From NCBI GenBank assembly GCA_022264855.1, contig JABYQU010000035.1, forward strand, positions 1-64,000: a stretch of DNA of 64,000 bases. Direction: 5' to 3'. Each line of letters starts with the position of its first letter. Position 1 is the stretch's first letter. Below the pieces are notes generated by a model that saw nothing but the letters and a program-made list of their open reading frames with translations, was not told the DNA's origin and made no database searches. The position numbers and the translations under genes are program-made. Of the stretch, positions 23,354 to 26,383 are shown piece after piece. The DNA comes from Lenzites betulinus. Lineage: Eukaryota > Basidiomycota > Agaricomycetes > Polyporales > Polyporaceae.

Positions 23354-26300
23354 CTAGAGTTTGGCTGGCTCGCCGAGCGCATAGAGCGCGTCGATGGGCG
23401 CCTTGAAGTGCTCATACGTCTCTTTCCTACAGCCCAAGAAAAACGCGCACGTAACGCGAGTGCAAGACATAAGTTAGACGAGTGTGTCGTTGAGAAATAG
23501 GGACTGCACGCACCGCCGAATCTTCAACGTCGGCGTCAGACACCCATTGTCGGTCGACAGCGCCTCGAGGGTCAAGTGAATCCGGCGGAGCTGCTCGAAG
23601 CTGGATAGACAAGCGGCGCGTGAGTACAGGTACGAGCACACGACAAGCCCCGAGGAGTCGGGCGCGCGACACTTACCCCCGGAGTCCGCACGATTTCGCG
23701 ACCTTCGTGAGCACGGCGAGGACTTCGGCAGTGACCTGCGGGTCTCTGGTGGCTTGCACGAGCGTCTTGAGGTGCGTCGGCGCGACAGCGCTGCCGCGCA
23801 CGCGCGAGACGAGCGCCGCGAACTGGACGGGGTCGGGCACGATGACAGCCACGAGGTACGCCTGCAGCGCGTCGCCGTGCACGAACAGCTGCGCGACGAG
23901 CGACGAGCCGCTGTACACGCTCTCGACGTGCTCGAGCGCGACATACTCGCCCTGCGCGAGCTTCGTGATGTTCTGCGGGGGCCGGCGCCGTCAGCGTGCG
24001 GGGATGGCAGCGAGCGGGGCCCGGGCACAGGTGCGTACCTTCAAGCGGTCGATGATTTTCAGGCGCAAGTGGTCGTCCAGCATGCCGACGTCGCCGGTGT
24101 GCAGCCATCCCTCCTCATCGATCGTCTCTGCAGTCTTTTTGGGATCTGTCGAGGAGAGCTCAGCGCGGCGCCATGCATCGGTACGGATACGCACTGACCT
24201 TTGTAGTAGCATGTGAAGCGTTGCCCGCCGCGCATACAGATCTCGCCGCGCGGGTAAGGCTTATCCTCGACGCTGTAGCCTAACTGCGGGACATCCACAA
24301 GCTTTAGTTCGGAGGTCGGGAATGGAGCGCCAACGGTCCCGCTCGAGGTCGGGTCACCTGCCAACGCACGGGTGAAGCAGCCGCAGTTTTCGGTCATTCC
24401 GTAGCTAGAGCGAGAACATGAGCAACAGAGCGGGAGAGTAGGACATGCATTTACCCTGCGCAGTGCAGGATACTGGTCAGAGCCGATGCCAATGGCAGAA
24501 ACGCCAGGCTACTCACCTTCAGTGACGATACAGCCCAGCCCGATCTTCAGGAAGTCCATGACGTCTGTGCTAATGGGTGCCGAACCACTGGTGATCATCA
24601 GTAACTGCCCTCCGAGGACGTCGTGTAGCTGTATGAACCAACTCCAATGAGCACATCATCCAGCGTGACAGGGTGTGTACTCCTATACCTTCTTGAATAC
24701 CAGACGGTCGTACAGCGCGTGGTGGAACTGGCCGTGCGTACGCATGTTGTACAGCTTCGTCGCCACTGCTTTTCGGAAGAGCGCGCCTTTCACTCCGGGG
24801 GCCGTACCAGCCGACATGGCCGCCTGGTATATCCTGTTCAAGACGCGCGGTACAGTAGGGAGCAGATGAGGCTTGAGGACTTGTAGATCGTCGAGCAATC
24901 GCGTGGGGTCTCCGCTGGGGAAGCCTATTTCGCCTCCAAATCCTACGCCGACCAGCTCCATCACGCGCTGTCCCTTCTATGAGCCCAGGCGACAGCAGTC
25001 GGACTCGCGTACTGACCTCGTAAATATGGGCCAAAGGCAGGAAACTTATCCGACGGTAGCACTCTTCGCTCGATACTTTAGACTGGTACATGAGCGAAAA
25101 GACGGCCTGGGCCATGCTTCCGTGATTGATGACAGCACCTATTCCACTGTCAGTGACGTTTGGCTACACGGAAGCGAGACACCTACCTTTCGGCTGGCCA
25201 GTGGTACCCTGTACGATGAATTCAGTCGATGCGGTCAAATGGTAAGTGATTACACGCACCGAAGTATAGCAGATAGTGGCAATTTGGTCAGACGTAGGCG
25301 TTATGACATCACGGAGGTTGGCGCGGCCAAACGCTTCCACTGTTGGGTTTACACGAGACGTGAGCACATTCCTCAAAGCATCTGCTTCCGCACGCACGTT
25401 CTGCAATCTCCTTGACCTGAACTCCAATAGTTGTGCCCCAAGCTGACATAATCGCTTTGGTTTCATCAGTGAGAGCCTCGATGGCGACAACCATCTTGAG
25501 CCTGGGACAACGAGGGGCCAGCTTGAGCAGGGCGGGTATGTGCACGGGCGCAGCGAAAACCACAGTCAACTCAGCATGGTTGATGCTAAGCAGGTTATAG
25601 GTTGGATATCCATGTCATGAATCGGACCGGAGGACTCACATGAACTCTGAAGCACCGGGCACGTCAATAAATGCGCATGTGGTTAAAACCCGGTCTACCA
25701 CATACCTGCGGAATCTTTCCCGAGGGTATTATACAAACTGACCCCGACTTTGGCATAGGCCTGCAGCGCGAGGTCGACGACTTGCCAGTCTGTGAGGCCA
25801 CACGCTATGCATAAGAGACTCGTTGAATTACACATAAAAACGCGGGACATACTGGGACAGTTCATGCTCCAAATACCCACAGTCGGGAGGTCTCCTCCGC
25901 CCAAAACGCCGGTCTCAAACAGCTTGTGAATGGCGCTCCCTACCGCACGACGGCGTGCATCCACCTGTGTCCAGGACTCCCAGACGTGGTAGTTCGCGTA
26001 CGTGAGGGGCTGCGTGGAGAGGACTGGGCGGTGTCCGAGGAACTTCCCGCCCTTCGCGCGCCTGAAGCCCTCGTCGTAGACCTCGAGCAGGTGTTGGAAT
26101 GCATCCGGCGAATCGAGCGTCTTGAACGGGAGCTGAGCTGCAATGATCACCTGTCACTTTAATCTGCGCAAATGACCACCGTGCACAACGGGGCGACGCA
26201 CCGGCGCGATAGTGACCTGTGGGAGAAGCGAGCTGACAGTCAGCAGGTGCGGTGACTGCGTATACTCGTCAACATACCAGTTTGTCCCGGGCGCCTGGTC

Positions 26301-26383
26301 CCTGGCACTTCGATGGCTTGCTTGTCATAATTCACGGTGGGAGGGTAGGGCAGGGGGAGGTGGGCGAAGCGTGAGGTAGACAT
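23354..26383 (-). CDS. Long-chain acyl-CoA synthetase, peroxisomal type
   Basis: Seventeen exons join to 692 aa, a normal length. Exons: 26278-26383, 26202-26216, 25853-26137, 25706-25789, 25640-25646, 25398-25585, 25260-25339, 25187-25208, 25017-25138, 24689-24976, 24517-24628, 24455, 24199-24404, 24039-24145, 23677-23972, 23514-23600, 23354-23426. The adenylate-forming motifs are present: the P-loop [10 protein letters not shown] (about 254-263), EGYGMTE (about 436-442) and GWLHTGDVG. The enzyme activates fatty acids with ATP and CoA. The C-terminus AKL fits the PTS1 rule, so beta-oxidation in peroxisomes is likely. Very small exons (7 nt at 25640-25646 and 1 nt at 24455) are needed to keep conserved residues in frame. 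Confidence 0.93.

Follow-up and report, generated by a model that had tools for sequence, protein, structure and literature searches.

Exons of a single base are the smallest that the spliceosome can define, and few are known; mitochondrial cases are also reported (for example PMC5436844, PMC12308204). The one-nucleotide exon of Arabidopsis APC11, an A, was established by mutation and a GFP fusion (Guo and Liu 2015; PMC4674806). One-nucleotide micro-exons of VPS55 and APC11 were described in 2022 as ancient, conserved across land plants and missed in annotations, with RT-PCR support (PMC8831610). In fungi, snoRNA host transcripts of the Candida parapsilosis group were described in 2016 as having single-base exons and alternative removal orders (PMC5033589). 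A one-nucleotide exon in Fusarium CYP621A, supported by SRA reads, was presented by its authors as the first in fungi and the second overall (Nelson and Syed 2026; PMC12940212). A search of the open-licence literature on one-base exons, micro-exons, fungal acyl-CoA synthetase and stwintrons found no basidiomycete case. Here we analyse a long-chain acyl-CoA synthetase gene of Lenzites betulinus (Polyporales), in which the G at position 24455 is very probably a constitutive single-nucleotide exon. It would add a new and apparently old example to the exons of minimal size.

The Lenzites exon resembles that of APC11 in its position as a constitutive one-base exon between two introns, in being essential for the frame and in being absent from annotation, and differs from the plant A shown by mutation and GFP in being a G that is known here from sequence (PMC4674806). 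Like the CYP621A exon, it is fungal and consists of a lone G that helps to encode the Gly of a conserved motif, and both have an AGGGT core and public models that are mostly wrong; unlike that exon, which belongs to another gene in an ascomycete genus, it lies in a basidiomycete acyl-CoA synthetase and recurs in three paralogs (PMC12940212). The Candida exons share its fungal origin and size, but are found in non-protein-coding transcripts of ascomycete yeasts, where no frame depends on the base (PMC5033589). As with plant VPS55 and APC11, the exon seems to be ancient and is missed by annotation, whereas its donor is GTAAAT and that of VPS55 is a conserved GTRAGT (PMC8831610). Stwintrons likewise combine two short introns of fungi that occupy one place and are spliced consecutively, but in them a splice signal of one intron is split by the other, whereas the Lenzites introns have intact signals and one exonic base between them (PMC9024468, PMC5639578). 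A stwintron was considered for this locus and rejected, since after removal of intron 11 the donor GG/GTAAAT is whole (slashes mark splice junctions) and no signal is split.

The window, the whole stretch of 64,000 nucleotides that was analysed, belongs to a genome of 37.4 Mb in 108 contigs. The splice sites of the acyl-CoA synthetase gene were read by hand (Table 1). Including the lone G, the CDS is 2070 nt long, its frame is open to the end and 16 of 16 introns are GT-AG. An earlier note on this DNA had proposed 17 exons and 692 codons plus a stop; the exon number held, but 689 codons plus a stop were counted. In a protein search, the translation matched the public L. betulinus protein P0001 with 100% identity over its full length. 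The protein has an AMP-binding domain with YGxTE, a nucleotide-binding motif of this enzyme superfamily. P0001 is listed with PF00501 and has PDB relatives, in keeping with a predicted long-chain acyl-CoA synthetase.

Table 1. Features of the predicted acyl-CoA synthetase gene around the one-base exon
Feature	Position	Strand	Description
Long-chain acyl-CoA synthetase gene, entire CDS	23354..26383	-	17 exons, 689 codons plus stop
Exon 5, 7-nt micro-exon	25640..25646	-	same gene
Exon 11	24517..24628	-	3' end GTC ACT GAA G, phase 1 in the Gly codon of EGYGMTE
Intron 11, 61 nt	24456..24516	-	GTGAGT...CGCAG; donor 11.9 bits (94th percentile of 54 introns), acceptor 6.3 (50th)
CTGAC branch-point-like motif, intron 11	24476..24480	-	its A is 22 nt upstream of exon 12; aligned CTGAC in both paralogs
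Exon 12, single G	24455..24455	-	second base of the Gly codon
Intron 12, 50 nt	24405..24454	-	GTAAAT...CTCTAG; donor weak, 6.4 bits (7th percentile), acceptor 5.0 (20th)
CTCAT branch-like motif, intron 12	24418..24422	-	both paralogs have CTCAC in the aligned position
Exon 13	24199..24404	-	5' end C TAC GGA ATG ACC GAA, phase 2 in the Gly codon
Weak donor GTAGCC, first base	24512	-	chosen by public P0001; 108-nt intron, EG-D-YGMTE, -2.9 bits

The earlier note had placed a lone G at 24455, between a cag acceptor and a gtaaat donor, and its coordinates, bases and intron sizes were exact. The first donor GTGAGT is at 24516, the acceptor CGCAG runs up to 24456, the second donor GTAAAT is at 24454 and the acceptor CTCTAG runs up to 24405. 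Its view that introns of 61 and 50 nt are of normal size was also borne out, as 54 other introns range from 48 to 124 nt, and the flanking signals are usable. A single base stands between an AG acceptor and a GT donor, as CAG/G/GTAAAT at 24455 and as AG/G/GTAAAT in two paralogs. This base is needed, as had been claimed, for the conserved EGYGMTE motif. Skipping G24455 leads to a predicted stop at codon 437, retention of intron 11 to one at codon 436 and retention of intron 12 to one at codon 435, so correct splicing would be required for the enzyme. The weakest signals of the one-base exon are the intron-12 donor, which has A instead of G at +5 (about 92% of other donors have G there), and, in the paralog on C25, the intron-11 acceptor, which scores under all 54 reference acceptors. 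The intron-11 donor of the paralog on C14 is also weak (7th percentile). The intron-12 donor, GTAAATGC (24447-24454, minus strand), is the same in the three paralogs despite the missing +5 G, and control of splicing order is a possible role for it.

Candidate solutions were scored with matrices built from 54 other introns of four genes (median 59 nt); the training set excluded the six introns under test, as well as a C25 intron in which a missed 7-nt exon is hidden. We enumerated solutions of one or two introns, each at least 40 nt long. Donors were GT or GC, starting 24 nt upstream of the first donor, and acceptors were AG, extending to 20 nt past the last one; TG donors were scored apart, and each solution was ranked by its weaker intron. 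The one-base exon ranked first among the in-frame, stop-free GT/GC-AG solutions in the window gene (on C38; 21 solutions), in C25 (17 solutions) and in C14 (10 solutions). The bare pattern is not rare, since among 205 scored GT..AG pairs lying 100-125 nt apart on both strands of the window, 17 contained AG/N/GT and 8 contained AG/G/GT. When both introns were scored and branch motifs were required, with donors of at least 6.3 bits and an acceptor cut-off of 2.5, one of 209 remained, the site at 24455 itself; these cut-offs were derived from that site and its paralogs, and none is left at a donor cut-off of 6.4 bits because this value just excludes the 24455 site.

A protein search of the genome revealed relatives that were close on C25, C14 and C27 and more distant on C29. 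The junction reads GAAG/GTGAGC...CCTAG/G/GTAAATGC...TAG/C TAT in C25 and GAAG/GTGGGC...CACAG/G/GTAAATGC...CAG/C TAC in C14. Spliced alignment with an equal cost per intron chose the one-base exon in the window gene, C25 and C14, with 0, 0 and 1 template mismatches, respectively. The C14 template was partly translated from DNA, with two residues supplied by analogy, because the public C14 model P0007 is wrong there; the sole mismatch is one of these two residues. AG/G/GTAAATGC and CTGAC align across all three paralogs, while intron 11 is otherwise largely diverged, and the alignment of the three intron pairs retains AGGGTAAATGC, CTGACCA (last base variable) and GCTCA. Collectively, the best-scoring solution in the window gene and in two diverged paralogs, together with the preservation of AG/G/GTAAATGC and of both introns' signals, supports the single-nucleotide exon proposed in the earlier note. 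C27 has neither intron at this site. In C29, the corresponding Gly codon holds a single 55-nt intron in phase 1, suggesting that intron 11 may be older and that intron 12 may have been gained later.

An identical mRNA and protein would result from a single intron of 111 nt (24515-24405) whose donor is a non-canonical TG, in which case the retained G is 24516 rather than 24455. The earlier note had already recognised that such a shifted, non-GT donor gives the same protein. A G opens the upstream intron and is also the one exonic base, which makes the two mRNAs the same, and mature reads therefore cannot separate the one-base exon from the shifted intron. The junction-spanning RNA-seq named as a check in the earlier note is a weaker test than was supposed there. 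The same ambiguity would affect mature reads in CYP621A, since both exons are G (PMC12940212); it does not extend to APC11, where the base was mutated (PMC4674806). Introns of more than 100 nt do exist among the reference set (two of 54, of 101 and 124 nt), but 111 nt compares with a median of 59 nt, the TG donor scores -18.5 bits, under all 54 reference donors, and a TG-AG intron does not account for the inner acceptor, donor and CTGAC that are conserved in three paralogs. We consider this arrangement very unlikely.

Marginally less probable still is a single 108-nt intron that starts at the donor GTAGCC, 4 nt downstream of the intron-11 donor. This canonical but weak GT donor was absent from the earlier note and is the one used by the public annotation, so that P0001 equals the resulting EG-D-YGMTE translation exactly; P0001 has 690 aa, not 689, owing only to the inserted Asp. 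The intron is GT-AG, and one of the five PDB relatives shown for P0001, a 4-coumarate CoA ligase, aligned without a gap at the inserted D. In the other four alignments, however, the D before YGMTE falls at a gap, and none of the 27 short-contig relatives among the matches listed has a residue inserted there. The donor lies under all 54 reference donors (-2.9 bits; the donor of the public C25 model scores -2.2), and the GT at its position is missing from C25 and C14, whose public models take other solutions. P0002, from C25, reads EG-EP-YG, while in P0007, from C14, most of exon 11 is absent, all of intron 11 is read and intron 12 is spliced after AG-G. Assuming an assembly error or pseudogene, with one base lost from an ordinary exon junction, would restore the frame in a simple way, but this is scarcely credible given that the one-base deficit occurs with intact inner splice sites at three separate loci whose remaining frame is open, and that irregular models recur at the same junction in other species.

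To return to the one-base exon, its wider conservation was judged from protein models, with the L. betulinus genome as the DNA basis. Three protein searches, with the best 120 matches of each, yielded 195 distinct proteins. Among the matches listed, 167 genome-derived models comprised 100 that were regular at the junction, 27 with one extra residue between EG and YG and 39 that were otherwise irregular, giving 66 of 167 irregular. P0183, which reads EGYAMTE at normal length, was not counted among the 66, P0175 (regular, on a 10.4-kb contig) was left out of the counts, and four Mycena-type EGWGMTE models were counted as regular. The last are P0139, P0147 and P0159 (Mycena) and P0182 (Roridomyces), in which the motif Tyr is replaced by Trp at normal length. 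In contrast to the genome-derived models, all 27 short-contig sequences (2.2-5.6 kb, sources lgn or jgi) among the matches listed were regular (Fisher value 4.6e-6, calculated with 67 irregular models, P0183 included). They read EG-YG with no insert, which informs on the presence of the base and not on its position. These sequences are probably spliced transcripts, since 18 of the 27 are on contigs shorter than the 3.03-kb span of the gene. In a subset of 157 genome-derived models, the junction was irregular in 64 (41%), whereas 12 ordinary junctions gave 0-8% and the 7-nt exon 20%. The 24 short-contig sequences compared alongside were all regular at the one-base-exon junction, and one was irregular at another. 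Of 18 short-contig sequences, none proved to be a same-species transcript partner of an irregular genome model; the closest pairs, at 97-98%, were P0087 with P0101 and P0098, and there the genome models are regular. The 7-nt exon, irregular in 32 of the 157 public models among the matches listed, is also 7 nt long in C14 and C27, and is visible in the C25 DNA although missed by the public P0002.

The form of the irregular models was compared with the splice signals. With a GTNNGT donor, a shift of 4 bases downstream adds GTNN, so that the Gly stays and one residue, encoded by NN and the third base of the Gly codon, is inserted. The 27 inserted residues fit the letters of GTNN/GT donors better than random (5 of 20000 simulated sets were as good), with the hypothesis framed after the residues had been seen and the third Gly-codon base varying by species. 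A simpler rule, that the inserted residues are codable by NNC, held for 16 of 16 in the first 120 matches but for only 21 of 27 overall, and was dropped. Among the 39 other irregular models in the matches listed, four (P0007, P0065, P0103 and P0123) have a residue plus G before YG, the pattern expected of intron-11 read-through. This read-through is visible in the DNA for P0007; the extra residues of P0065 (Termitomyces) and P0103 (Panaeolus) end in P-G before YG, like read-through to AG-G, and the insert of P0123 is too short for a whole intron. In a further 15 of the 39, the residue that precedes YG or WG is S or R, as the tail of intron 12 would supply.

The 27 one-residue models come from Polyporales, Russulales, Boletales and Agaricales, and other irregular kinds were also found in Jaapiales, Gloeophyllales and Amylocorticiales (order checked in one or two species each). 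Both kinds occur in Plicaturopsis, P0093 being irregular and P0045 regular. The recurrence of irregular models at one junction suggests that many species share the one-base deficit, and its frequency of 66 in 167, against 0-8% at ordinary junctions, points to a deficit that is probably ancient in Agaricomycetes. The 100 regular models among the 167 listed are compatible with either the one-base exon or fewer introns, and were counted against wide conservation, as were six models that group with Coniferiporia and are regular in length (Hymenochaetales: P0070, P0078, P0117 and P0183-P0185). All 15 models that group with P0025, the C27 protein whose gene has no intron at the site, are regular. 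On balance, we favour with some confidence a reading in which the one-base exon was fixed once in an early Agaricomycete and kept across much of the class, at least in Polyporales, Russulales, Boletales and Agaricales, and through gene duplications. It would then perhaps be the widest-spread protein-coding case in fungi and lie behind an error that recurs in dozens of public models, and its weak GTAAAT donor may set the order of intron removal.

From the anatomy of the site, its layout in three paralogs and the open frame, we infer how it is spliced, in what order and since when. Each flanking intron would be recognised on its own by the spliceosome, through intron definition, which is usual for short fungal introns. 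Since U1 bound at the second donor would cover part of the first acceptor, the two introns are most likely excised in succession. Removal of intron 12 first would leave ...CAGG/CTACGG, and removal of intron 11 first GAAG/GGTAAATG; either order would yield GAA-G-G-C-TAC, with the Gly of EGYGMTE. The arrangement, common to the three paralogs, probably dates to an early Agaricomycete ancestor. Together, the three paralogs and, apparently, several mushroom orders offer natural variation with which to probe how overlapping acceptors and donors are handled and in what order. The one-base exon would also account for the recurring irregularity of public mushroom acyl-CoA synthetase models at the catalytic motif.

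The more distant relatives on C29 include four near-equal AMP-binding gene matches near 226686, 237315, 247944 and 258570 (L002-L005), spaced by about 10.6 kb, which represent either a tandem array of segments or an assembly artefact.
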